Below, piece after piece: positions 4,372-41,721 of a stretch of DNA of 43,776 nt; positions within the stretch are counted from its first letter, which is position 1, and every line of letters begins with the position of its first letter. The DNA is from a virus: positions 1 through 43,776 of IMG/VR virus record IMGVR_UViG_3300025009_002634. One strand, 5' to 3'. The notes under the pieces are model-generated. The model saw nothing but the letters and a program-made list of their open reading frames with translations, did not search any database and was not told the DNA's origin. The position numbers and the translations under genes are program-made.

Positions 4372-5145
4372 TCATGCTGCGTATTCCTGTTCGGCGCCAT
4401 CGCAGAACAATCCGCACGCTGGCAGCGGTTCTCCGCGATGCGCTTTGCCTTCTGGCAACTGACGAAGTGGAAAGCGTTGTCCTTTGAGTGGCCCTGAACG
4501 GTGGCGCAGGATGTATGCGCCTTCACCATGCAGTGCGGCAACCTTGTCTTCGGCCTGGGCCAGCCGCTCGAACTGCGCCGGGAAGTCTTCTCGCACAGCT
4601 CGGAAATAGCCAAGACCACCTTTCACGCACCCGATGCAGTTGGCGTTGTCGTAGCCAAGCAGGTACATCTCTGGCAGCTTGATCCCGGCGCGCTCGACCA
4701 TCGCCTTGCAGTCCTGTTTTGTCAGCCCGCGAGCAATCAGCGGGGCAATAATCTTGCGGTCTGGCCAGGCTTCCAGCCAATCGGTGTAGCGGTCCTCTTC
4801 CTCGGCGGTGTATCCAAGAACCAGCGTGTCGCCAGGCTGCTCAAACGTCCGCAGCAGGCCGCGCTTAATGCGTGTGGTACATGCAGCGCCGTACTGCCCC
4901 TTGATGTAGCCCACCGTTTCAAAAACCTTGATCGCGCTTGCGTCGTACTTGGTGTCCCTCAGGTTGGTGATTGACTTACCAAACCAGCGCTCGCAGTCAT
5001 CCGCAAAGCGCCGGTTGTCTGGGTGCTCTTCTTCAATGTAGGCATTCAAGATCACACACCTGTCCAGTCCGTGTACCGACAGGGAAAGTTTCGTGGCTAC
5101 AGCAGAAGCAGCGCCGCACGAGAACTGGCAAACGATGCGGCTCAT
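4372..5145 (-). CDS. PAPS-reductase/ATP-pyrophosphatase-like enzyme
   Basis: 257 residues from the ATG at 5145 (AAGGAGAGCAACC upstream; the frame stays open to 5472 but the strong site marks this start). QFSCGAASAVA at residues 7-17 is a variant of the SGGxxS loop that binds ATP in the adenine-nucleotide alpha-hydrolase/PAPS reductase superfamily. EEEHPDNRRFADDCERWFG and the CTTRIKR segment match phage members of this family. Two cysteine pairs follow (NCIGC, and CGLFC near the C-terminus). The substrate is unknown. Sulfur or nucleotide chemistry, such as thio-modification of nucleic acid or sulfur assimilation, is family-based inference; no dnd partners are nearby. Confidence 0.8.
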   Translation of the reverse strand: MSRIVCQFSCGAASAVATKLSLSVHGLDRCVILNAYIEEEHPDNRRFADDCERWFGKSITNLRDTKYDASAIKVFETVGYIKGQYGAACTTRIKRGLLRTFEQPGDTLVLGYTAEEEDRYTDWLEAWPDRKIIAPLIARGLTKQDCKAMVERAGIKLPEMYLLGYDNANCIGCVKGGLGYFRAVREDFPAQFERLAQAEDKVAALHGEGAYILRHRSGPLKGQRFPLRQLPEGKAHRGEPLPACGLFCDGAEQEYAA

Positions 5146-5378
5146 GGTTGCTCTCCTTGTGCTTTGGCAATCGCTGCGCGGGCTGCTGCGATGAACTCGC
5201 TGTGAACCATCGTTGCTGACGGTGACCAGTAAGAGACATTGTTGCCCGGGCTCTTTGGAGCGTACTTCTCTGGGCCATTCGCGTTTTCGTCCCTGTCCGC
5301 AACAATCGCTTTCAGCGCCTCCAGCAGTTCCGCATTGATTGCAGACAGGCGGTACTGCTCTGGTGCGTGGAAGCTCAT
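5142..5378 (-). CDS. Small hypothetical phage protein
   Basis: 78 residues from the ATG at 5378 (MSFHAPEQYRLSAINAELLE). Pattern words are 'LLEALKAIVADRD' in the N-terminal half and 'FIAAARAAIAKAQGEQP' at the C-terminus, seen in many short phage proteins that pair an 'LLEALK' helix with an 'AARAAIAKA' tail. Ribosome site AAAGGCGG. It overlaps both neighbours by 4 bases, so translation is probably coupled. Function unknown. Confidence 0.65.
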   Translation of the reverse strand: MSFHAPEQYRLSAINAELLEALKAIVADRDENANGPEKYAPKSPGNNVSYWSPSATMVHSEFIAAARAAIAKAQGEQP

Positions 5379-5629
5379 TGCGCACCGCCTTTCTTCTCGG
5401 CTTCCCACTGCTTGCGGCGCGCGCCAAGGTCGTGGGCACCGAAGCCGACGAACACGACCCAGCGAGAGACAAGCAGGATGCCGATCAAGGCTGGCCAGGA
5501 CTTGACCTCAAGGCCGAAGCCGTAGACGAAACCCACGATGGCGGTTGCCATGTCCACGGCCCAGAAGGCGTAGTGGCGAAGCGCTGGCATCAGCAGGCCG
5601 GGCTTCTTGTTGTCGTTGGTCGTACTCAT
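5375..5629 (-). CDS. Small inner-membrane protein
   Basis: 84 residues with two predicted membrane segments: ~residues 22-41 (FWAVDMATAIVGFVYGFGL) and ~46-65 (ALIGILLVSRWVVFVGFG). A charged C-terminal tail (RRKQWEAEKKGG) probably faces the cytoplasm. The ATG at 5629 follows AAAGGCGG. Expressed in the early operon, it could be an exclusion or host-membrane-modifying protein, but nothing in the sequence decides this. It is not in the lysis module, which argues against a holin role. Confidence 0.65.
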   Translation of the reverse strand: MSTTNDNKKPGLLMPALRHYAFWAVDMATAIVGFVYGFGLEVKSWPALIGILLVSRWVVFVGFGAHDLGARRKQWEAEKKGGAQ

Positions 5630-5862
5630 GCTTCACCGCCTTTCTTGAGGGCTTCATCAATGGCAGAGCGCAAGGCCAGAAGCTGGTCGCGTCCTACTAC
5701 AGTCACACTGGATGCAGGGGTGTAGGTGCCCTCGTCGGTGTCGCTGCTTTCCATCACAACGACCATCGGTGCGTGCTTGATGGCATCGCGCGGACGGCGC
5801 CAAGACGCCACCCTGCCGACGCAATCAAGTGGAACTGCTCCAAACTCAAAATAGACGTTCAT
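5626..5862 (-). CDS. Small hypothetical phage protein
   Basis: 78 residues starting MNVYFEFGAVPLDCVGR at the ATG at 5862, after GGAGGCTGTGGA. The longer frame to 5934 lacks a ribosome site. The C-terminus (LLALRSAIDEALKKGGEA) is a short amphipathic helix. It overlaps the exonuclease stop region and the downstream membrane-protein start by 4 bases each. No known motif. Confidence 0.6.
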   Translation of the reverse strand: MNVYFEFGAVPLDCVGRVASWRRPRDAIKHAPMVVVMESSDTDEGTYTPASSVTVVGRDQLLALRSAIDEALKKGGEA

Positions 5863-7754
5863 TCCACAGCCTCCACAGCGCAAGCAGCCAGGACGTGCGC
5901 GCTGATGGCCCTGCAGATCGCAGGCAGATCGCATTCCCTGTAAAACCGCGAAGCCTTCACCTGCTCGACCGGATCAAAGCCCAGCGCTGACAGGCCGGCG
6001 ACGTTGATGCTGACCGGGGCGATTGCTGCGTTGAGCTGGGTCAGGGTGAGGCGGGCGCCGTCGTCTTCTGGCGTACCGATGTCCGGCTTCGATGCGAGGT
6101 CAACGCCGAACGATATTGGCCTGTAGCCACGCGACACGACCGCAGCCGTTGCCATCTTGTCGATGGTGGTGTTCAGCGTGTCCTGAACTGCTGGAGACTG
6201 AATGGCGTAGGCCAGCGCATCGGCGCCTTGCTGGCTGATTTCGGCCTGCTCTTCACGGATGCGCGCAGCGCTCACAGCTTCGGCCTGCTCACGGGCGATG
6301 CGGTCAGCCTCAACCTGCACAGCATTGGCACGCTCGCGCTCCAGCCGTCCAGCCTCTTCCTGCTCACGCTTGCGCGCCATTTCTTCCGCTGCCTCGCGGA
6401 CCTTGCGCGCGGCCTCAGCCTCACGCTCCAGCCGCGCCGCTTCCTCTGCCCGGATGCGCTCGCGTTGCGCTTCTTCTGCGGCCTTGGCGACGGCAACTCG
6501 CTGAGCGATCACTGCGGCGAAGTCGTCCGTTGCCTTGACCACCAGCGTTGCCAGATCAGGAGGGATTCCAATCCCAGCATCGCGCAGGGCTGCGAGGTTG
6601 GAATGGATGCGGTTCGCGATGTCGTTGGCCGCGATCTTGACCCGGGCCAGCTCAGTGTCCACCGCGTTCGTGATGCTGTCGATGGTCCGCAAGCCCTTGA
6701 TCGCGCCGCCGAAGTCATCCGGCACCTGGGGCATGTAGTTGGCAGGCATGGCCGCGTTCAGCTCGCGGATGTGCTTCGCCATGGCGGCAACACCGCTGGC
6801 CACGATGTCGGCCTTCATGGATTCCTTGCGTGCCTTCACCAGCTTGTCCAAGTCCAGGCGAACGCGGCGCGCTTCGGCGCTGATTTCGTCCATGGTGCGG
6901 AACAGGGCATCGATGCTGGCCGTCTGGCTCAGTGCATGGTCCTTCGCGGCCTTGATGCGGTCCTCGATGTCGCTGCACCACTTCACAGCCTTCTCGGCAT
7001 CGGCAAAGTGAACATCGGTGGTCAGCTCGCGGTTGACCGAGCGGATCGCGCCCAGCGCTGTTTCCTTGAACTCATCCAAGTTGCTGGCCGACACGCCGCC
7101 TTGAATGACGATGTGCAGTGCGGGCAGGGTTTCCGGGGCCTTGCCGGTGGGCTTGACTTCGGCGGCTGTTGGTGTGAACTCGATCAGGTCTTTGGCGAAC
7201 TGTTTCCATCCCGCGATCAGCGCGGCGCGGCGCTCAGGCTTGCTGGTGTACCAGCACTGTGCCCACTTACCCGGTGTGCCATCGCTGGTGACAAACAGGA
7301 TTCGCTGTCCACCTGAAACCAGAAGCTGCTGTTCAAGCTGCCAGACGTAGTACAGCGGCGGCTCGCCGACCTGTGCAATGTGACTGGCGATTTCTTCGGA
7401 GTACAGCTTGTGTTCGTAGCCAATGGAATAGTCCATCGTGAGTCCATCGAAGCTCGCCAGAAGCGGCAGGCCTTCGACCTCAAGCGATCCGACAACTGGA
7501 TAGAGGTCTTCACCGATTTCGACCTCGGCAAGAGGTCGCGCAGCGGATTCCGTGGCGTGCCCTGGCGCAAAGACGCGGACTTCCACAAAGTCGCTCACGT
7601 CGGCAACGATGCCGGTCTTCGTCTCGCGCAGCAGTTCGTTGCGCTGCTTGGTCGGGTGACAGCCCTTCATTGCGGCAGCGTTGCTGGCCGTGTAGTAGCG
7701 GCTGCGCAGTGCGGCCCATTCCGGGCTTCCTTGGATTTCTGAGTGCAGGTGCAT
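5859..7754 (-). CDS. YqaJ-family (RecE/lambda-exo fold) recombination exonuclease with long coiled-coil tail
   Basis: 631 residues. The N-terminal ~210 residues match YqaJ viral recombinases: QGSPEWAALRSRYYTASN (residues 8-25), GHATESAARPLAE (~65-77), then active-site candidates D103 (SFDGL) and E114/K116 (YEHK), the D..ExK pattern of the PD-(D/E)XK exonuclease fold. Such enzymes resect double-stranded DNA to give 3' overhangs for an annealing protein. Residues ~400-510 are a charged Ala/Glu/Arg-rich coiled coil, making the protein about twice the length of a bare YqaJ domain. The likely partner is the 303-residue protein encoded at 8006-8917. Confidence 0.88.
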   Translation of the reverse strand: MHLHSEIQGSPEWAALRSRYYTASNAAAMKGCHPTKQRNELLRETKTGIVADVSDFVEVRVFAPGHATESAARPLAEVEIGEDLYPVVGSLEVEGLPLLASFDGLTMDYSIGYEHKLYSEEIASHIAQVGEPPLYYVWQLEQQLLVSGGQRILFVTSDGTPGKWAQCWYTSKPERRAALIAGWKQFAKDLIEFTPTAAEVKPTGKAPETLPALHIVIQGGVSASNLDEFKETALGAIRSVNRELTTDVHFADAEKAVKWCSDIEDRIKAAKDHALSQTASIDALFRTMDEISAEARRVRLDLDKLVKARKESMKADIVASGVAAMAKHIRELNAAMPANYMPQVPDDFGGAIKGLRTIDSITNAVDTELARVKIAANDIANRIHSNLAALRDAGIGIPPDLATLVVKATDDFAAVIAQRVAVAKAAEEAQRERIRAEEAARLEREAEAARKVREAAEEMARKREQEEAGRLERERANAVQVEADRIAREQAEAVSAARIREEQAEISQQGADALAYAIQSPAVQDTLNTTIDKMATAAVVSRGYRPISFGVDLASKPDIGTPEDDGARLTLTQLNAAIAPVSINVAGLSALGFDPVEQVKASRFYRECDLPAICRAISAHVLAACAVEAVE

Positions 7755-20669: not shown

Positions 20670-21227
20670 ATGAACAACTTCACACAGATCAAGATGCCCA
20701 AGCTCGACACCGCGCTGGCATTGAACGACCTGGCCGCCAACAGCGACCTGTTCCAGCAGATCACCATCCGGCAGCTGTTCATCGGGTCCGACCACAAGGA
20801 CACGGAAACCATCTACCTGCGTGGCCCGCGCGGGTTCACGCCTGAGCAGTACATGACGCCCGGAGAGTCGGTCAACTACAGCCAGAACATCAGCGCCCTC
20901 AACAGCGTGGCCGAGCTGATCGACGCATGCACCGACGCGCTGTCCGCTCAGGACCTCGGCCACGTCCTGGTGGTCAAGCTCAAAGCCGGCGGCGTGGTGA
21001 CAGAGCACATCGACGAGGGCGCGTATGCCGACCACTACAAGCGCTTCCACCTGGTGTTGAGCACGAACGACGGCTGCACCATGAAATCAGGCGACGAGAC
21101 CATGCACATGGCCGCCGGAAACCTGTACCTGTTCAACCACAAGCTGCCCCACAGCTTCACCAACGCTGGCGACACCGACCGCATCCACGTCATCTTCGAC
21201 TGCATACCTGGGGTGCGCGTGAAGTAA
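20670..21227 (+). CDS. Aspartyl/asparaginyl beta-hydroxylase-like 2OG-Fe(II) oxygenase
   Basis: 185 residues with a double-stranded beta-helix C-terminal half. Predicted iron ligands are H113-x-D115 (TEHIDEGAY) and H161 (HKLPHSF), with R171 (TDRIHVIFD) placed to bind 2-oxoglutarate; R125 (YKRFHLVL) is also family-conserved. The spacing matches the Asp/Arg hydroxylase domain. A hydroxylated target (capsid, portal or host protein) is unknown. It starts 2 bases after terL and is followed by an acetyltransferase, before the portal gene. Confidence 0.8.
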   Translation: MNNFTQIKMPKLDTALALNDLAANSDLFQQITIRQLFIGSDHKDTETIYLRGPRGFTPEQYMTPGESVNYSQNISALNSVAELIDACTDALSAQDLGHVLVVKLKAGGVVTEHIDEGAYADHYKRFHLVLSTNDGCTMKSGDETMHMAAGNLYLFNHKLPHSFTNAGDTDRIHVIFDCIPGVRVK

Positions 21228-21699: not shown

Positions 21700-22140
21700 A
21701 TGGCAGTTTCAGCAGTGATCGGCGTGGCAACCGTGGTTGGAGCCGCCAGCGCGGAGAAGTCCAATCAGACCGCCAAGAAGGGCCAGCGCCAGGCCGCCAA
21801 GCAGTTCGATGAGCAGGCTGCTATGGAGAAGGACCGCATGGCCAAGGAGATGGAGCTGGCAAACGCCAGCCTGTCCCAGCAGCAGGCCGCCCTTGGCCAG
21901 CAGTGGGCCGCCCTCAGTGCCCAGAAGGATGCCGCAGCCAAGGCGCAGGCCCTGGCCGAGCGCAACGCGCGTGACGCCGACATCGCCAACAACAAGGCAA
22001 CCCGCAAGGCCCCGAACATCGGCGCCATGCTGACCGGCAACGACAAGGCCGGGGCACTGGGCGCCGGTTCCACCCTCCTGACCGGTGCCGGTGGCGCCGC
22101 TCCTGGCACGCTGGGCAAGACCACGGCACTGGGGGCCTGA
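21700..22140 (+). CDS. Small Ala/Gln-rich virion-associated protein
   Basis: 146 residues with a short hydrophobic N-terminus (MAVSAVIGVATVVGAASAEK), a long helical middle rich in Ala/Gln/Lys and a Gly/Ala-rich C-terminus (GAGSTLLTGAGGAAPG). AAGGAGATCTGAC gives a strong ribosome site. The composition resembles small helical proteins next to portal genes in podoviruses, possibly an ejection or connector component. No catalytic motif. Confidence 0.65.
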   Translation: MAVSAVIGVATVVGAASAEKSNQTAKKGQRQAAKQFDEQAAMEKDRMAKEMELANASLSQQQAALGQQWAALSAQKDAAAKAQALAERNARDADIANNKATRKAPNIGAMLTGNDKAGALGAGSTLLTGAGGAAPGTLGKTTALGA

Positions 22141-22141
22141 C

Positions 22142-23806
22142 ATGGCAGAGCCAGAAGGCACGCAGGCCATCGACCTGTTCCGGCAGCGTCACGCCACGCT
22201 CAAGACCGAGCGCTCGACGTGGGACGGCCAGTATCAGGAGATCGCGACCTACCTGAAGCCGCGTGCCGGGCGATTCAACATCGGCGAGCAGAATGACGGC
22301 AAGCGCAAGCCCGGCAAGATCATCGACTCTGCCGGGTCTCGAGCCCTTCGCACGCTGGGCGCTGGCCTGATGGGTGGGGCCACGAGCCCGGCCCGCCCGT
22401 GGTTCCGCCTGTCCACTCCAGACCCTGAGATGGCCGACTTCGGCGCCGTCAAGGCTTGGCTGCACGAGGTGCAGCGGGTGATGATGACGGTATTCCAGCG
22501 CTCCAACAGCTACCGCGCGCTGCACACCATGTACGAGGAGATCGGCGCGTTCGGCACCGGCTGCTCGGTGGTTGTCGAGGACTTCCAGGACGTGATCCGC
22601 CACCACTCGCTGACCATCGGTGAATACACCCTGGCGCAGGATGACCGCGGCGTGATCAACACCATGTACCGCGACATGGAGCGCACCGTTTCCCAGGTGG
22701 TGCAGCAGTTCGGCATGGCCAACGTGTCGCCCACGGTGAAGAACATGTACGACCGGGGCCTGCTGGGCTCGAAGGTGCACCTGATCCACCTGATCGAGCC
22801 TCGACTGGACCGCGACCACCGGCTGAAGGACAACCGGAACATGCCGTTTCGGTCCGCCTACTTCGAAGCCGGGTCCGACAACCAGCGCTTCCTGCTCGAC
22901 AGCGGGTTCAAGACCTTCCCAGCCCTCACACCGCGCTGGACCACGACATCCGGAGACACCTACGGCGAGAGCCCGGCCATGGAGGCACTGGGCGACTTGA
23001 AGCAACTCTACCACCAGCAGCTGCGCAAGGGCCAGGGCATCGACTACAAGACCAACCCCCCGTTGCAGGTCCCGCTGGAGATGCAGAACCAGAAGCTGTC
23101 CATGCTCCCTGGCGGTGTGAGCTACGTCAACATGAACAGCCAGCACGGCCGGATTCAGACCGCGTTCGACGTGAACATCGACCTTAGCCACCTGCTGGAA
23201 GACATCCACGACGTGCGCGGGCGCATCGAGTCGGCCTTCTACAGCGACCTGTTCATGATGATCGCGAACAGCACGCGCACCAACATGACGGCTACCGAGG
23301 TGGCCGAGCGCCACGAAGAGAAGCTGTTGATGCTGGGACCGGTGCTGGAGCGCCTGCACAACGAGCTGCTGGACCCCATGATCGACATGACGTTCAACCG
23401 GCTGGCCGAGGTCGGTGCCTTGCCTCCACCTCCTCCAGAGCTGCAGGGCGTCGAGTTGCGCGTCGAGTACGTGTCCATGCTGGCCCAGGCTCAACGGGCG
23501 GTGTCAACCAACAGCATCGATCGGTTCGTCGGGAATCTGGGCCAGGTCGCCATGATCAAGCCCGAGGTGCTCGACAAGTTCGACAGCGATCGATGGGCAG
23601 ACGAGTACGCCGACATGCTGGGCATCGACCCGAACCTGATCATCCCGGGCGAGCAGGTGGCCGTGATCCGCCAGCAGCGTGCCGAGGCCATGGCCCAAGC
23701 CGAGCAATCCCAGCAGGAGCAGCAGCAGGCTGCAACGATGAAGGATGTGGCCCAGGCTGAAGCCGTGGCGCCGCAGAACGCAATGGCCATGTTCTCTGGC
23801 TACTGA
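22142..23806 (+). CDS. Portal (head-to-tail connecting) protein
   Basis: 554 residues from the ATG at 22142, one base after the previous stop. It matches the podovirus head-tail connector family: ERSTWDGQYQEIATYLKPR at the N-terminus, AGSRALRTLGAGLMGGATSP, PWFRLSTPDP and IGAFGTGCSVVVEDF. The C-terminus is Gln/Ala-rich (QSQQEQQQAATMKDVAQAEA), as in the barrel region of many portals. It forms the dodecameric DNA channel. Confidence 0.94.
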   Translation: MAEPEGTQAIDLFRQRHATLKTERSTWDGQYQEIATYLKPRAGRFNIGEQNDGKRKPGKIIDSAGSRALRTLGAGLMGGATSPARPWFRLSTPDPEMADFGAVKAWLHEVQRVMMTVFQRSNSYRALHTMYEEIGAFGTGCSVVVEDFQDVIRHHSLTIGEYTLAQDDRGVINTMYRDMERTVSQVVQQFGMANVSPTVKNMYDRGLLGSKVHLIHLIEPRLDRDHRLKDNRNMPFRSAYFEAGSDNQRFLLDSGFKTFPALTPRWTTTSGDTYGESPAMEALGDLKQLYHQQLRKGQGIDYKTNPPLQVPLEMQNQKLSMLPGGVSYVNMNSQHGRIQTAFDVNIDLSHLLEDIHDVRGRIESAFYSDLFMMIANSTRTNMTATEVAERHEEKLLMLGPVLERLHNELLDPMIDMTFNRLAEVGALPPPPPELQGVELRVEYVSMLAQAQRAVSTNSIDRFVGNLGQVAMIKPEVLDKFDSDRWADEYADMLGIDPNLIIPGEQVAVIRQQRAEAMAQAEQSQQEQQQAATMKDVAQAEAVAPQNAMAMFSGY

Positions 23807-23816
23807 GGAGACCCCA

Positions 23817-24110
23817 ATGATCAACATGAAGCGCAAGCCGTCCAAGGTCAATGTGCTGGAGCCGCAGTGCTGCTCTCCCGACGAGAGCCCCTATCCCTAC
23901 GGCCTGCACATCTCTCTGTCCACCGAGGAACTGGCCAAGCTCGGCATCAAGGACATGCCCGACGTTGGCACCGTGATGACGCTGCACGCCAAGGTGCTCG
24001 TGACCAGTTCCAGTGAGTCGAAGTACGAGGGCAAGCCAACGGCATACGACATGGGCCTGCAGATCACCGACATGGAGCTGTTCGCTCCCGGCAAGACCAT
24101 CTACAGCTGA
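23817..24110 (+). CDS. Small capsid-associated protein (staple/cement-like)
   Basis: 97 residues starting MINMKRKPSKVNVLEPQCC. The basic N-terminus, then PYPYGLHISLSTEELAKLGI and VGTVMTLHAKVLVTSSS, follow a pattern I associate with podovirus 'capsid staple' or structural accessory proteins. GAGGAGACCCCA precedes the ATG at 23817. Its place between the portal and head genes supports a virion role; the exact name is less sure. Confidence 0.65.
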   Translation: MINMKRKPSKVNVLEPQCCSPDESPYPYGLHISLSTEELAKLGIKDMPDVGTVMTLHAKVLVTSSSESKYEGKPTAYDMGLQITDMELFAPGKTIYS

Positions 24111-24124
24111 TCGAGGAATTCAAA

Positions 24125-25444
24125 ATGACAAAGCTCAAATCAGGCTCTCCGTTCGTCTACGACGACGCAACCGATGACATCGTCGGCATCCGTGATGCAG
24201 ACGGGGGTGAGAAGTCGCTAGTGACGATGGGCACCACCGGCCTAGCAATCGGCGGGTCTGAGCCTACCCAAGCTCAGCGGGCGCAGATGCGGGATTCTTT
24301 GTCTGGCGGTAGCTCGATGAATGCTCTCAGGACAATGCTTCTGTCGAGAATGCCTGTCTCTTGGGATTTAATGGTTGGTGCTCCAACTATCACGCTTGGT
24401 GTAGCAAACGCGGCGTCTGCAATTTCAGGTGCTGTAAATATTGCAAAAGACTCAGCATTGATTCTTGAGTCAACGCGATGCGAGACGGGTGCAGCTTTTC
24501 CCAGCACCTTGTTCCGCCTTCCGGTAAATTACGACGCTCAGGCATCTGGTGTTGCTGCCGCATTTACCGCTGCAACGGTTGCATCTTGGACCATCATCAC
24601 GGATGCTGTTCAAGTAGAGTTCAAGATAATGGGGCAAGGCTTTTCCAGCAATGGAAGGATTTGGGTTACTGAAAACGGAGTTCGAAAAATGGCCGGAATA
24701 GTACCAGCCGTTCCTTCCAATGGCAGTTCTTATTGGGTGCTTGTTGAATTTTCTGCTTCTGGTATGCGGGAAATAGAGGTTGAGCTTTCTGGCGGAAAAT
24801 TTGGAGGCTGGAACATATCGTCCTCCGCGGTCATCGGTAAAAAAGAGCAAGTCGGCCCTTCTGTGATGATTTTGGGAGACTCATTCTCAGAGGGTAGCGG
24901 GTCCACTGCAGGCTATCACGACGGATGGGCTGCTAGGTTTTTGAGAATAATTGGCGCTACCAAGAAAACAGTTTCAGCCATAGGATCAACTGGTTATCTT
25001 GCCAATAACAATGGGTTGAAGAAAAGCCTACTGGAGCGGTACGAGCATGATGTTGTTGGGCTCCCGCACGACGTCATTATTCACACCAATGGATTGAACG
25101 TCACAGCAGTAGACCATACGGCAGCCGCAAGCGAAGTATTCGCCGGAATCAATGCTGGGATTCCGGGGTGTTTACAAATAGCATTCGGCCCGTTTCAGCC
25201 ACATTCCCTTGATGTAGAGGCCCGGCGTGTTGCAATAGCAACTGCCGCCGCAGAGAACGGTGTTTTGTTTATTGACAATGTGACTGATATGGAGATCACA
25301 GGCACAGGGAGACTTGGTGCGCCAGCCGGAAACGGAAACTCAGATATTGTAATTAACCCAGACAATACACACCCAACCCCGTATGGTCACCAGCACATTG
25401 CCGAATGGCGCTTTCGTGCTTTGTGTAAAGCACTGTCTTTGTAA
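24125..25444 (+). CDS. SGNH/GDSL hydrolase (probable carbohydrate esterase) with phage N-terminal module
   Basis: 439 residues. The C-terminal ~200 residues are an SGNH esterase: VMILGDSFSEGSG carries the nucleophile S253 in GDS, and D413-x-x-H416 (NPDNTHPTPYGH) completes the triad. Residues 1-60 (SPFVYDDATDDIVGIRDADG) look like a virion-attachment module. From about residue 55 the DNA is clearly richer in A/T than the flanking head genes, suggesting a swapped domain of foreign origin. It probably deacylates host surface polysaccharide. Two terminators follow it, isolating it from the next head gene. Confidence 0.8.
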   Translation: MTKLKSGSPFVYDDATDDIVGIRDADGGEKSLVTMGTTGLAIGGSEPTQAQRAQMRDSLSGGSSMNALRTMLLSRMPVSWDLMVGAPTITLGVANAASAISGAVNIAKDSALILESTRCETGAAFPSTLFRLPVNYDAQASGVAAAFTAATVASWTIITDAVQVEFKIMGQGFSSNGRIWVTENGVRKMAGIVPAVPSNGSSYWVLVEFSASGMREIEVELSGGKFGGWNISSSAVIGKKEQVGPSVMILGDSFSEGSGSTAGYHDGWAARFLRIIGATKKTVSAIGSTGYLANNNGLKKSLLERYEHDVVGLPHDVIIHTNGLNVTAVDHTAAASEVFAGINAGIPGCLQIAFGPFQPHSLDVEARRVAIATAAAENGVLFIDNVTDMEITGTGRLGAPAGNGNSDIVINPDNTHPTPYGHQHIAEWRFRALCKALSL

Positions 25445-25481
25445 ACACCAACCCCGATCCAGTCTGCACCGACACCCCAAC

Positions 25482-25505
25482 AAGCCCGCACTGTGCGGGC
25501 TTTTT
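25482..25505 (+). terminator. Strong intrinsic terminator after the SGNH gene
   Basis: AGCCCGCA and TGCGGGCT form a perfect 8-base stem around a CTG loop, followed by TTTTT. It lies 37 bases after the esterase stop. This should stop most unmodified transcripts before the capsid genes. Confidence 0.88.
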
Positions 25506-25537
25506 CATTTCCGGGTGAGCAAGCTTTCACCATAACG

Positions 25538-25560
25538 AACCCGCCTTGTGCGGGTTTTGT
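25538..25560 (+). terminator. Second, weaker terminator
   Basis: ACCCGC and GCGGGT pair around CTTGT, followed by TTTGTTCTTT. Tandem placement ~50 bases after the first terminator reinforces the stop. Confidence 0.7.
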
Positions 25561-25628: not shown

Positions 25629-25967
25629 ATGAGTGAGCACGACCCTACGGACTTCGAAGCGAATGAGCGTGAGCAGGTGCTTGAAAAGCGCCGCCTCAAG
25701 AACGCACAGATCGTCGAGCAGGACGACGTCAAGTGGCTCATGGGAAGCAAAAGGGGGCGCCGCATCGTCTGGCGGACTCTGGAGCGAACAGGGGTTTTCC
25801 GGCTGAGCTTCAACACCAATGCCATGCAAATGGCCTTCAACGAAGGCAACCGGAATGAAGGAAACGCGCTGCTGACCATGGTCAACGCGCACGCCCCTGA
25901 CCTGTACATCGAGATGTTGAAGGAACACACAAATGGACCCGCAAGTGATGGACGCTCAAGCCAATGA
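25629..25967 (+). CDS. Bbp19-like phage protein
   Basis: 112 residues. DVKWLMGSKRGRRIVWRTLER followed by TGVFRLSFN and NEGNRNEGNALLTMV matches the Bbp19-like domain named after a protein in the BPP-1 head module (family function unknown). It overlaps the scaffold gene by 35 bases. Its presence is one of the clearest ties to the BPP-1-type head-gene set. Confidence 0.82.
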   Translation: MSEHDPTDFEANEREQVLEKRRLKNAQIVEQDDVKWLMGSKRGRRIVWRTLERTGVFRLSFNTNAMQMAFNEGNRNEGNALLTMVNAHAPDLYIEMLKEHTNGPASDGRSSQ

Positions 25968-26613: not shown

Positions 26614-27630
26614 ATGGCTGCACTCGAAAACAAGTTCCCCACCATGCTGGATGTCGCCCGCCGCCTTGACCCGGGTGGCAAGATCGACATCATCAGCGAG
26701 ATCCTGACGCAGGAAAACCCCATCAACGAAGACATGGTCTACGTGGAAGGCAACCTGCCAACGGGCCACAAGTCGACCGTTCGCACCGGCATTCCTGCCC
26801 CCACCTGGCGCAAGCTGTACCAAGGCGTTCAGCCCGGCAAGTCGCGTACCGCTCAGGTTACCGACTCGTGCGGCATGCTGGAAGCCTACGCCGAGGTCGA
26901 TGTGGCACTGGCCGACCTGAACGGCAACACCGCCGCGTTCCGCATGAGCGAAGACCGCGCCTTCATCGAAGGCATGGCCCAGGAGATGGCGTCCACCATC
27001 TTCTACGGCAACGAGGCCAGCAACGAAGCCGCCTTCACCGGCCTGGCTCCGCGATACAACTCGCTGTCCGCAGAGAACGCCGACAACATCATCAACCACG
27101 GTGGTGCAGACGCCGCCGGCAGCACCTCGGTGTGGCTGGTGCTGTGGGGAGACTCGACCGTTCACGGCATCTACCCCAAGGGGTCGAAAGCTGGTCTGTC
27201 CATGACCAACAAAGGGCAGATCACCATCGAGAACGTGGACGGTGCCGGTGGCCGCATGGAAGCCTATCGCACGCACTACCGGCAAGACGCCGGCCTGGTG
27301 CTGCGCGACTGGCGCTATGTCGTGCGCGTGGCCAACATCGACGTGTCGGCCCTGACCGTCGATGGCACCGCCGCTGACCGCGCGACCGCCCAGAAGGCGC
27401 TGATCAACTCCATGGTCGCTGCCACCGAGCGCATTCCGAACTACAGCCGTGGCCGCGCCGTCTGGTACGGCAACCGCACGATCCGCGAAGCGCTGCGCCT
27501 GGGCATCCTGGAAAAGGTCTCCAACAACCTGTCCTGGGAAACGGTCGAAGGCAAGCGCGTGATGACCTTCGACGACGTGCCGTTCAAGCGCACCGATGCG
27601 CTGCTGAACACCGAGGCCCGCGTCGTGTAA
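26614..27630 (+). CDS. Major capsid protein (BPP-1-like, HK97 fold)
   Basis: 338 residues. N-terminal LENKFPTMLDVARRLDPGGK, then QENPINEDMVYVEGNLPTG, KLYQGVQPGKSRTAQ and GMAQEMASTIFYGNEASNE are typical of BPP-1-type podovirus capsid proteins. TAGGAGATCAAA precedes the ATG. Its position after the scaffold and before the cement protein agrees. Intact length. Confidence 0.93.
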   Translation: MAALENKFPTMLDVARRLDPGGKIDIISEILTQENPINEDMVYVEGNLPTGHKSTVRTGIPAPTWRKLYQGVQPGKSRTAQVTDSCGMLEAYAEVDVALADLNGNTAAFRMSEDRAFIEGMAQEMASTIFYGNEASNEAAFTGLAPRYNSLSAENADNIINHGGADAAGSTSVWLVLWGDSTVHGIYPKGSKAGLSMTNKGQITIENVDGAGGRMEAYRTHYRQDAGLVLRDWRYVVRVANIDVSALTVDGTAADRATAQKALINSMVAATERIPNYSRGRAVWYGNRTIREALRLGILEKVSNNLSWETVEGKRVMTFDDVPFKRTDALLNTEARVV

Positions 27631-28439: not shown

Positions 28440-28475
28440 AAGGGGCTGCGCTCTCACGGGTGCAGCCCCTTTTTT
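28440..28475 (+). terminator. Intrinsic terminator ending the head-gene block
   Basis: AGGGGCTGC (28441-28449) and GCAGCCCCT (28462-28470) form a 9-base stem with a 12-base loop followed by TTTTT. It separates the capsid genes from the tail genes. Confidence 0.85.
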
Positions 28476-32479: not shown

Positions 32480-34309
32480 ATGCCAACCGTCCCACTCGTC
32501 AACTCGCCCAGCGTTTCCCCGACCACCACGTCAGGCGCGCGCTACTCGGCGCCCGGGCTGGTGAAGCCTGACGCACCAAACGGTGCCCGCTTCAACACCC
32601 GGCCGCAGGAAGTCCAGGTCGACACGCGCCAGCTCATGGCCGACGCCAACCGGCCCAACCCGATGCGCGAGAGCCTGAGCAGGCTCAGCGACATCGCCAT
32701 GAAGGTGCAGCTGGATGCCGAGGAGCAGGCCAACCAGGTGCGGGTTAATGAGGCCCTGAATCAGGCGGTGCAGTCGCGGCTGGCGCTGACCTACGACCCT
32801 GAGCAGGGCTATGTGCACCTCCAGGGCAAGGCCGCACTGGACCGCCCGGACAAGAAGTCGCTCAGCGTCGAATACGGCGAGAAGTACCAGGAGACGCTGA
32901 GCAGCATCGCCGCCGGCCTGGGCAACGACAAGCAGCGCGCCATCTTCATGGAGAAGGCCGGAGCCCTGTCCACCCAGTTCCAGGGTGGGCTGATGGAGCA
33001 CACCGCGAAGGAGTTCTCCAACCACTCGCTGAGCGTGCAGTCCGGGACGATCGCCACGAACATCGGTCAGATGGGCCTGATGTTCGGCGACCCGGATGCG
33101 CTGGCCCAGTCGGTCAGTGCGATCAAGGCCGCGACCGCCGAGGAAGGAAGGCTGCGCGGCTGGTCTGGGTCGGAGGTCGAGGCGACCACGATCAAGAACC
33201 TGAGCATGGGCCACGCCACCGTGATCAAGTCGGCCATCGATGCCGACATGCACGAGTTCGCCGATGAGTACTTCAAGATCCACAAGGGCGAGCTCAGCAA
33301 CGAGGCCCGGCTGACCGTCACCAAGCTGGTCGACGAAGGCGTGATGGAGGCCAAGGTGCAGCGCGTGAGCGACGGCCTGCTGGACAAATACGGCGCCGAC
33401 ACCTCGGCCGCCATGTCCGAAATCCGCGAGAAGTACCAAGGCAAGGAACGTGCCGAGATCGAAACCCGCGTGATCGCCCGGGTGAAGCAGGAGCGCGACT
33501 TCCTCAAGCAGCGCCAGGACGACGTCATGACCCAGGCGTGGACCACGCTGCAGAGCGGCGGCAAGCTGTCGCCTTCTGTTCTTGCACAGATGCACCCCGA
33601 GGACCGGGAGAAGCTGCGCAAGTACCAGCGCAGCCGGGCCGAGGAAGGCAACGTCGCGCGCAAGACCAACATCGCCGCATGGCTGGCTTTCGCCGACACG
33701 CCGCCGGCAGAACTGGCCAAGATGACGGCGGGGGACCTGCTGCGCAACTACGGCAACCACATGAGCGACTCCGACCTGAAGTCCGCCCAGGGCAAGATCG
33801 TCGCCGCGCGCGCCGCGGTGGAGAAGGGCGACCATTCCGGCCTGCAGCTGTTCACCGTGCAGGACGCGGTGAAGACCGGAGCCCGCGACCTCGGAATCAT
33901 CCCGAAGACCGGCAGCAAGCTGAGCGACTCCCAGCAGGAAGCGCTCGACACCTTCAAGCACAAGATCCAGGACAAGGTCAACAACTGGGAGGCCCAGAAC
34001 CCGGGCAAGCGCGCCAGCAACGAGCTGATCGGAGAGATCGTCCAGAAGGAGAAGGTCAACGTCGCCCGGGTTCGTGGGTTCTTCCGGGACGAGACAAAGC
34101 CTGTCATCACCATGGACGACGACGACCTGGGCAAAGCCTACGTCACGGTCCGCGCGGCCGACGGCAAGGGCATCGACAAGGTGCCGCTGGCATCTGTCCC
34201 GGCCTCCTACCGCATGGACGCCATCCAGCGGCGCAAGGCCCGCGGCCTCCCCGTCACCGAATCCGCAATCGCCCAGATGTGGGTGGCAGACGGCAAACCG
34301 AAGAACTGA
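32480..34309 (+). CDS. Internal virion protein (T7 gp15-like position)
   Basis: 609 residues, almost wholly helical after a disordered N-terminus. No catalytic motif. QLMADANRPNPMRESLSRLS, then PEQGYVHLQGKAALDRPDKK, resemble podovirus internal proteins that sit between the gp14-like and giant gp16-like proteins. It probably forms part of the periplasmic DNA-translocating tube. It starts one base after the previous stop; no strong Shine-Dalgarno, so coupled translation is likely. Confidence 0.75.
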   Translation: MPTVPLVNSPSVSPTTTSGARYSAPGLVKPDAPNGARFNTRPQEVQVDTRQLMADANRPNPMRESLSRLSDIAMKVQLDAEEQANQVRVNEALNQAVQSRLALTYDPEQGYVHLQGKAALDRPDKKSLSVEYGEKYQETLSSIAAGLGNDKQRAIFMEKAGALSTQFQGGLMEHTAKEFSNHSLSVQSGTIATNIGQMGLMFGDPDALAQSVSAIKAATAEEGRLRGWSGSEVEATTIKNLSMGHATVIKSAIDADMHEFADEYFKIHKGELSNEARLTVTKLVDEGVMEAKVQRVSDGLLDKYGADTSAAMSEIREKYQGKERAEIETRVIARVKQERDFLKQRQDDVMTQAWTTLQSGGKLSPSVLAQMHPEDREKLRKYQRSRAEEGNVARKTNIAAWLAFADTPPAELAKMTAGDLLRNYGNHMSDSDLKSAQGKIVAARAAVEKGDHSGLQLFTVQDAVKTGARDLGIIPKTGSKLSDSQQEALDTFKHKIQDKVNNWEAQNPGKRASNELIGEIVQKEKVNVARVRGFFRDETKPVITMDDDDLGKAYVTVRAADGKGIDKVPLASVPASYRMDAIQRRKARGLPVTESAIAQMWVADGKPKN

Positions 34310-40308: not shown

Positions 40309-41721
40309 ATGCCCATTTCTTCAACCAACCGAAAGGCGGGTCCGTTCCATGGTGATGGGATCGTTGATACCCTGCCTTTCGAGTTCAAGGTGTTCAACGA
40401 CACCGAGCTGTTGGTGATCAAGGCCGACGCGCTGGGCGCTGAGTCGACTCTTGTTCTGACCACCGACTACACCGTCACGCTGAACTCTGACCAGGAGGTT
40501 GACCCCGGCGGCGAGGTGGTGCTTGTCGCGCCCCTGCCGTTGCTCGAAAGCGTTGTCGTCACCAGCGATCTTCCAGAGCTTCAACCCATCGACATCACCA
40601 ACCAGGGCGGGTTTTACCCGGCGGTGATGAACCAGGCGCTGGACCGCTTGACCATCCTGACGCAGCAGCTGCGCGTGGACGTAGGGCGGTCTGCGAAGCT
40701 GCCCATTACCCGCACCGAGGACGCTGATGCGCTGCTGGCAGACGTGGTTCTGCTGGCCGACAACATCGCCAGCGTGCTGACGGTGGGAGGATCGATCGGT
40801 TCTGTGAACGCCGTTGCTGCCGTTGCCGCCGATGTGGCTGCTGTGGCCGCCGCCCTTGACGACATCGCTGCAGCCCTTGCTGATCTCCCGTCCCTGGCGG
40901 CCAAGGTGAGCAAAGCCGGCGACACGATGACGGGGCACCTCGTTGCCATCGCTGGCGCCACAGGATCACAAGTCCCCCGACGCTCCGAAGTCGTCGGTAG
41001 CACGGGTGACGAAACCATCGCCGGGATAAAGACCTTCAGCAGCGCGCCGGTTGTCCCGGCCAGCGCGACCGGGTCTCATGCTGTGCGGGCGGACGAGACG
41101 GTGCGCAACGTGGGCGGCGCCGCACGGTTCCCGACGTGGACCACGGCAGGCCGTCCGGCGACACCGGCCGATGGCGACACCGGGAAAAACACCGATCTTG
41201 ACTGCAACGAAACATGGAGCGCAGCGTACTCGGCCTGGATTCAGGAAGGGCTGCAGAGCGGGGCCGAAGCGGCACTCGCGGGCACAGCCTTCGACTTCAC
41301 AGGCATACCGGCGTGGGCCGCGCAGGCGACGCTGGAGTTCTATGGCCTGAGCACGAACGGCACGTCTGAGCCCTTGTTCCAGCTCATCACCAGCGCTGCT
41401 GTCACGTCGGGCTACGCGGCGGCATCGACCGGAACCTCAGGCACAGCTTCATCTAGCCGGTCCAGTTCCGCTGGCGTGCAGCTTACGAGCACTGCAGCGG
41501 CCAACGTCCTCCACGGCAAGCTGGAGCTGAAGCGCTCCAAGGCATCCGCCTTCCGTTGGTGGATCAGTGGGGAAGTGCAGGTTGTTGGGCAGGTCGGAAC
41601 CATGACGCTCTCCGGTTTCATCGATCTCGGTGCGGACGTGCTCACCGGAGTTCGCGCGACCACCACGGGCGGCGCAAACACCTTCGACGCCGGGACTGGC
41701 GTGCTGTCTTGGAGGGCTTGA
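40309..41721 (+). CDS. Tail fibre/receptor-binding protein (T7 gp17-like N-terminus)
   Basis: 470 residues. DTLPFEFKVFNDTELLVIKA, TTDYTVTLNSDQEVDPGG and GGFYPAVMNQALDRLTILTQ form the T7-type tail-fibre N-terminal domain that attaches to the tail. An Ala/Val-rich shaft (VNAVAAVAADVAAVAAALDD) is followed by a probable trimeric coil and a beta-rich tip (ELKRSKASAFRWWISGEVQ). CTGGAGATCACGCA supplies a good ribosome site. Host specificity probably lies in the last ~180 residues. Confidence 0.86.
   Translation: MPISSTNRKAGPFHGDGIVDTLPFEFKVFNDTELLVIKADALGAESTLVLTTDYTVTLNSDQEVDPGGEVVLVAPLPLLESVVVTSDLPELQPIDITNQGGFYPAVMNQALDRLTILTQQLRVDVGRSAKLPITRTEDADALLADVVLLADNIASVLTVGGSIGSVNAVAAVAADVAAVAAALDDIAAALADLPSLAAKVSKAGDTMTGHLVAIAGATGSQVPRRSEVVGSTGDETIAGIKTFSSAPVVPASATGSHAVRADETVRNVGGAARFPTWTTAGRPATPADGDTGKNTDLDCNETWSAAYSAWIQEGLQSGAEAALAGTAFDFTGIPAWAAQATLEFYGLSTNGTSEPLFQLITSAAVTSGYAAASTGTSGTASSSRSSSAGVQLTSTAAANVLHGKLELKRSKASAFRWWISGEVQVVGQVGTMTLSGFIDLGADVLTGVRATTTGGANTFDAGTGVLSWRA

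Follow-up and report, generated by a model that had tools for sequence, protein, structure and literature searches.

The gene at positions 24125-25444 of the window (the whole stretch of DNA analysed here, a 43,776-bp virus record) probably encodes a virion-attached, exchangeable glycan O-acetylesterase in which a foreign two-domain unit sits behind a short anchor, and we put the probability of this reading at about 75%. The late region of the window is that of a BPP-1/epsilon15-type podovirus (short-tailed), with terminase, portal (PF12236), Gp10-like (PF21628), the gene in question, Bbp19-like (PF25181), protease/scaffold and GP7-type capsid genes following each other, so that portal, Gp10-like, Bbp19 and GP7 capsid stand in the order typical of this backbone. 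The phage is probably temperate, given an integrase-like ORF (1-1185) identified by eye at the left end of the window. Bordetella phage BPP-1 has the same backbone (portal-bbp20-bbp19-protease-MCP), but its slot, as we call the site between the portal and Bbp19 borders, is empty. BPP-1 also has no gene at the site at which the window carries, between TerL and a GNAT gene, an Aspartyl/asparaginyl beta-hydroxylase-like gene (20670-21227; PF05118, E 1e-14). The features referred to below are as follows.

22139-23806, plus strand: portal or head-tail connector, upstream border of the slot (PF12236, E 7.5e-179)
23817-24110, plus strand: homologue of the Gp10-like capsid decoration protein (PF21628, E 5.3e-10; phmmer match to epsilon15 gp10, 3j40_N, E 2.9e-4)
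24125-25444, plus strand: slot gene, ORF for an anchored SGNH esterase-like protein of 439 aa with an ATG start (PF13472, PF00657)
24125-24241, plus strand: conserved N-terminal anchor, aa 1-39, SPFxYDxxTxDIVGxxDxDGxE (alignment A1; 79 viral loci)
24242-24577, plus strand: linker, aa 40-151, with predicted helices at 49-60 and 63-73 and the GC3 break at codon 56
24578-24817, plus strand: beta-sandwich domain, aa 152-231 (AF2 block with pLDDT 75-92; Foldseek matches to CE2 esterases)
24860-25441, plus strand: SGNH hydrolase domain, aa 246-439 (invariant residues in alignment A2; model)
24881-24883, 25097-25099, 25361-25363 and 25370-25372, plus strand: codons of Ser253, Asn325, Asp413 and His416 (alignment A2, which also marks Gly290)
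25482-25502, plus strand: intrinsic terminator 1, 9-pair stem and T run (-15.8 kcal/mol, z -2.3)
25537-25557, plus strand: intrinsic terminator 2, 8-pair stem and T-rich tail (-13.0 kcal/mol, z -3.5)
25629-25967, plus strand: Bbp19-like protein, downstream border of the slot (PF25181, E 6e-15)
26614-27630, plus strand: major capsid protein, GP7 family (PF20911, E 7.6e-134)
40309-41721, plus strand: separate tail fibre gene with a T7-type N-terminus (phrog_1640, E 2.8e-20)

An earlier note on this DNA described an SGNH gene that interrupts the portal-to-capsid gene order. The placement is right, given that the ORF lies between the Gp10-like and Bbp19 genes and has a Pfam Lipase_GDSL_2 match, but a better description is a permanent variable slot with this gene as one of its occupants. 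In 80 viral loci collected through the neighbouring Bbp19 protein, the segment from portal to Bbp19 ranges in length from zero to about 4 kb, and the slot proteins of several loci start like the window protein (SPFLYDxxTGDIVGVKDPDGSE). An alignment of this N-terminal anchor recovered 79 viral loci when used as query; a hand-made consensus query found no matches. These loci hold 74 distinct anchored proteins, 68 of them with a portal or Gp10-like gene upstream and 63 with Bbp19 or the major capsid protein downstream, and most of those lacking the expected neighbours are limited by contig ends. Anchored genes located elsewhere were found in three loci (L129, L151 and L097), and in a fourth (L150) the anchored gene precedes the terminase genes of another phage. 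The idea that the anchor travels with the Gp10-like gene was rejected: of 65 checkable cases, 15 have the latter directly upstream and in 36 it went undetected within the fetched flank, and it is therefore not required.

Aligned with eight anchored proteins, residues 1-40 of the window protein score z 14-23 and the remainder z about 0. The kept start and exchanged catalytic end proposed in the earlier note are thus borne out, with a conserved length of some 35-40 residues instead of 55-60. That proposal was to fall if all relatives carried the same gene at this place; they carry other slot genes, and it therefore passes this test. Searches of genome contigs by anchor and by portal returned no relatives, and a near-identical relative of the window with another cargo was not found. 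Residues 1 to about 40, the conserved part, would form an attachment module common to the slot proteins.

Behind the anchor, of about 35-40 residues, at least eight unrelated C-termini occur in about 70 distinct viral proteins, a conserved N-terminus with unrelated C-termini at one locus that makes these proteins modular. The majority (54 members) carry C1q-like knobs, followed by a 10-member family and a 2-member family of Sf6-type tail needle knobs (PF16532, E 8.8e-33). The singletons are the window protein, another SGNH protein unrelated to that of the window (L098; PF13472, E 1.5e-8), a polysaccharide deacetylase just below cut-off (L081; PF01522, E 3.3e-4) and the cargoes of L101, L078 and L150. 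L101 joined the 54-member cluster only through chaining; its reading as a sialate-esterase-type enzyme, made from motifs by eye and without Pfam or PDB support, was dropped. In one further locus (L028) a polysaccharide deacetylase (PF01522, E 1.4e-5) that lacks the anchor occupies the slot. The C1q-like cargo was modelled at a pLDDT of 91.9 and matches BxpB, BclA, TNF ligands, C1q and the phi812 spike knob. C1q/TNF-type folds form trimers in their known members, and the predicted fold suggests that the slot knobs do so too.

Several loci show further arrangements. The anchor is fused directly to the Sf6-type knob in L106 (36-596) and L127 (5415-5975), which leaves no room for the needle's coiled coil. 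In L008 (1944-5398) the anchored knob is preceded within the slot by a gene with collagen repeats (PF01391, E 1.3e-9) and by one of 843 aa. In L129 (4668-6198) and L097 (1391-2614) the anchored knob gene stands directly before tail tubular protein A, and in L129 the Gp10-like gene accompanies the displaced gene. Limnohabitans phage DC33 (PQ492659.1, L084) is recorded under Inoviridae, yet its genes and the description of its micrograph are those of a tailed phage. Neither virion proteomics nor a structure turned up for any phage with the anchor, and the papers on DC33 and the Caulobacter phages gave no proteomics.

The base composition of the slot gene changes shortly after the anchor. Its GC content is 0.506, compared with 0.616 for the window, and its GC3 is 0.47, compared with a mean of 0.84 and a minimum of 0.58 in 60-codon windows of the other genes. 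Maximum likelihood places a GC3 change point at codon 56 (38-85 within 2 lnL), where GC3 falls from 0.70 to 0.44 (permutation p 0.0115, 0.009 on repeat). The composition is therefore not uniform and the earlier placement of the shift at about codon 55 was correct (p ~0.01), but the claim that the start resembles the rest of the phage holds only in part, given that 0.70 exceeds the remainder of the gene and still lies below the phage mean. The anchored protein of L101 (5010-6911) is a second case of AT-richer cargo behind the anchor, with a GC3 of 0.68 up to codon 38 and of 0.40 beyond it (p 0.028).

A natural swap in isolated phages has the same form. The Caulobacter phages JessA, RapA, SR18 and BL94, distant relatives of BPP-1, have the same slot between the Gp10-like and Bbp19 genes and, like the window, combine a short conserved start with an exchanged end. 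JessA is 97.7% identical to SR18 up to position 5056 of its locus (L215) and 99.5% identical from 6267; the corresponding values against BL94 are 97.2% up to 5058 and 98.3% from 6267. Identity breaks about 17 codons into the ORF starting MALPISDLTLATLSKG and returns at the final coding base of the JessA slot gene, just ahead of its stop codon. Two different SGNH enzymes serve as cargo, one in JessA and RapA (PF13472, E 9e-16) and another in SR18 (E 4.4e-9), whereas in BL94 this start is fused to an unrelated protein of 680 aa; all are annotated merely as hypothetical. Within our collection the JessA start occurs in these four phages only and is unrelated in sequence to the window anchor. Judged by sequence, the swap is the window's architecture with a different anchor. 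In JessA and SR18, unlike the window, the enzyme is preceded by the anchor as a short ORF of its own: in JessA a 44-aa ORF (5006-5140) overlaps the SGNH ORF (5137-6270) by 4 bases. Translational coupling or a frameshift fusion is a possible explanation for the split anchor of JessA as against the fused one of BL94.

The catalytic end has the hallmarks of an SGNH hydrolase. PF13472 (Lipase_GDSL_2) matches aa 249-423 with E 2.9e-6 and a score of 28.3, below the curated cut-off of 32.9, and PF00657 matches with E 2.6e-5 and a score of 24.9, above its cut-off of 23.6. The block I GDS nucleophile is Ser253 in GDSFSEG, invariant in alignment A2, and Ser253, Gly290 (block II), Asn325 (block III) and the block V DxxH pair Asp413/His416 are common to six phage esterases; block III has GLN where GxND is usual. 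The AF2 model is mostly confident in both domains and low at residues 1-47, which include the anchor, and 72-151, and together with Foldseek it gives an SGNH alpha/beta fold. The best Foldseek matches include the CE2 carbohydrate esterases 2wab, 2wao and 2waa (E 2e-12 to 2e-11; for 2wab E 2.0e-12 and a TM-score of 0.63 by target), which share the combination of beta-sandwich and SGNH domain and align across both domains over about 330 columns. A phmmer search of the PDB gave no CE2 sequence match at E up to 10, and the modelled protein is therefore called CE2-like in fold and not a CE2 member. The CE2-like fold and the characterised phage SGNH proteins suggest glycan O-deacetylation as the predicted activity.

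Among named phages the closest homologue is GOATification gp4, with 27% identity over window aa 53-439 (E 4e-11), and the part of the protein that other phage esterases share starts near aa 53. Alignment A2 proved too divergent for use as a search query; a three-sequence SGNH alignment used in its place found 44 viral loci with related modules, mostly behind other N-termini, and the full SGNH search of viral contigs returned only two anchor relatives.

The earlier note called polysaccharide-modifying enzymes attached near the head unusual. Esterases in head modules are uncommon, but precedents exist. In the Gordonia phages, GOATification gp4/gp5 and Hollow gp12 are SGNH esterases encoded right after the portal gene, as in the window, although the phage type and the N-terminal module are unrelated. 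GOATification gp4 and gp5 (L164, 3410-6511) are 65% identical over an 85-aa start and have no further significant similarity, which at the level of sequence is a third instance of a shared start with different ends, in an unrelated phage type. The Hoc-like protein of Enterobacter phage PG7 joins an N-terminal capsid-binding domain to a C-terminal GDSL lipase/acylhydrolase (PMC10385173) and so resembles the window protein in layout, but its anchor is the Hoc domain of a T4-type phage, whereas that of the window is about 40 aa and the window protein matches no capsid-binding domain of the Hoc type and no Ig-like domain in Pfam or PHROG. Virions of Vibrio phage Peru-2 contain abundant GDSL esterase P2_42; it is not resolved in them, and its authors suggest the internal core (PMC13320782). 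PG7 and Peru-2 were the only cases that we found in the literature when looking for head-attached esterases. G7C gp63.1 and Klebsiella prophage receptor-binding proteins also place SGNH esterases on phage surface proteins, and the Klebsiella tail fibres are active esterases (PMC13123978); these are tail fibres or spikes, whereas the window gene lies in the head module.

Both terminators reported behind the slot gene exist and fold better than shuffled sequences. Terminator-like sites in the region number 12, not clearly above the 9.5 of shuffles (sd 3.2), and a stricter plus-strand scan from 18601 retains only these two, one at 33556 inside a coding region and a very strong one after the cement-type gene (28440-28471; -28.6 kcal/mol, z -4.2), the operon position of which is comparable to that of an annotated terminator within the late region of epsilon15. 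Of the 153 loci covered by the strict scan, only a few have a terminator upstream of Bbp19 (the window, L005, L061 and L081/L089), with enrichment behind enzyme cargo (Fisher p 0.006, from very few cases). JessA and RapA also have a terminator behind the slot. The JessA hairpin (6406-6433) belongs to the conserved flank and not to the swapped segment, and is therefore resident; the idea that terminators hitchhiked with the cargo was dropped. This resident hairpin and the late-region terminator of epsilon15 speak against taking the terminators as a clear mark of insertion; the pair behind the slot gene suggests regulated read-through instead.

The main alternative concerns location and is compatible with the enzymatic reading: the slot protein may be a component of the tail or adsorption apparatus, with the anchor binding the tail or the portal-tail junction and the head-module position being merely gene order. 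We regard this as possible but somewhat doubtful. Two anchored proteins carry the Sf6-type tail needle knob and two loci have the anchored knob gene directly before the tail tubular protein gene, both of which favour neck or tail, and the JessA cargo and the window module resemble tail fibre or spike modules elsewhere. Against it, the window phage encodes a T7-type tail fibre elsewhere, and the slot protein is therefore an additional component. The nearby homologue of epsilon15 gp10, a capsid decoration gene adjoining the slot, and the Gordonia homologue, which matches a PHROG annotated as head decoration, favour the head.

Two readings that take the protein off the particle surface fare worse. 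Packaging inside the head and ejection with the DNA, for action in the periplasm or on acetylated peptidoglycan, is unlikely: the virion-abundant P2_42 and weaker-scoring Foldseek matches to peptidoglycan O-acetylesterases fit it, but the same anchor bears C1q-like and Sf6 needle knobs, which are external receptor-type domains. A moron, here an esterase for lysogenic conversion that the prophage expresses and that has nothing to do with the particle, would account for the AT-richer composition and the terminators behind the gene, both typical of morons, and would suit a phage that is probably temperate. We consider it very improbable, given that no promoter-like site was found upstream on the plus strand, that the gap to the Gp10-like gene is only 14 bp, that no signal peptide is evident by eye and that the N-terminus is common to knob proteins of the same slot and needless for a cytoplasmic enzyme.

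Under the preferred reading of a virion-attached esterase, residues 1 to about 40 would attach the protein to the particle, and from about residue 53, as the start of the homology and the nearby break in composition show, a foreign unit of beta-sandwich and SGNH domain has been joined to the anchor. Next to the separate tail fibre, the enzyme would deacetylate capsule, O-antigen or exopolysaccharide during adsorption. The slot gene probably shares a transcript with the portal and Gp10-like genes. The two terminators that follow it probably reduce or gate the transcription that reaches the capsid genes, and late-operon antitermination would overcome them.

The window gene belongs to a recurrent exchange slot, and anchored, swappable receptor-binding or glycan-modifying phage proteins are a known theme. 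A broader proposal, to which we give a little less than even odds, is that BPP-1-type podoviruses keep a permanent display slot within the head module. There a short anchor would fix exchangeable cargo, among it knobs, SGNH esterases and polysaccharide deacetylases, to capsid or neck, glycan-modifying activity would reside on the head and not on the tail, and recombination bounded by the anchor and the gene end would replace the cargo. The Caulobacter isolates make this idea testable in laboratory strains. If true, a whole phage lineage would have a second site, encoded in the head module, for adsorption and glycan modification in addition to the tail fibre, and cargo would swap cleanly behind an anchor of about 40 aa (about 17 aa in the Caulobacter phages). 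This would change the reading of such genes, currently annotated as hypothetical, and would offer a compact display anchor of natural origin.
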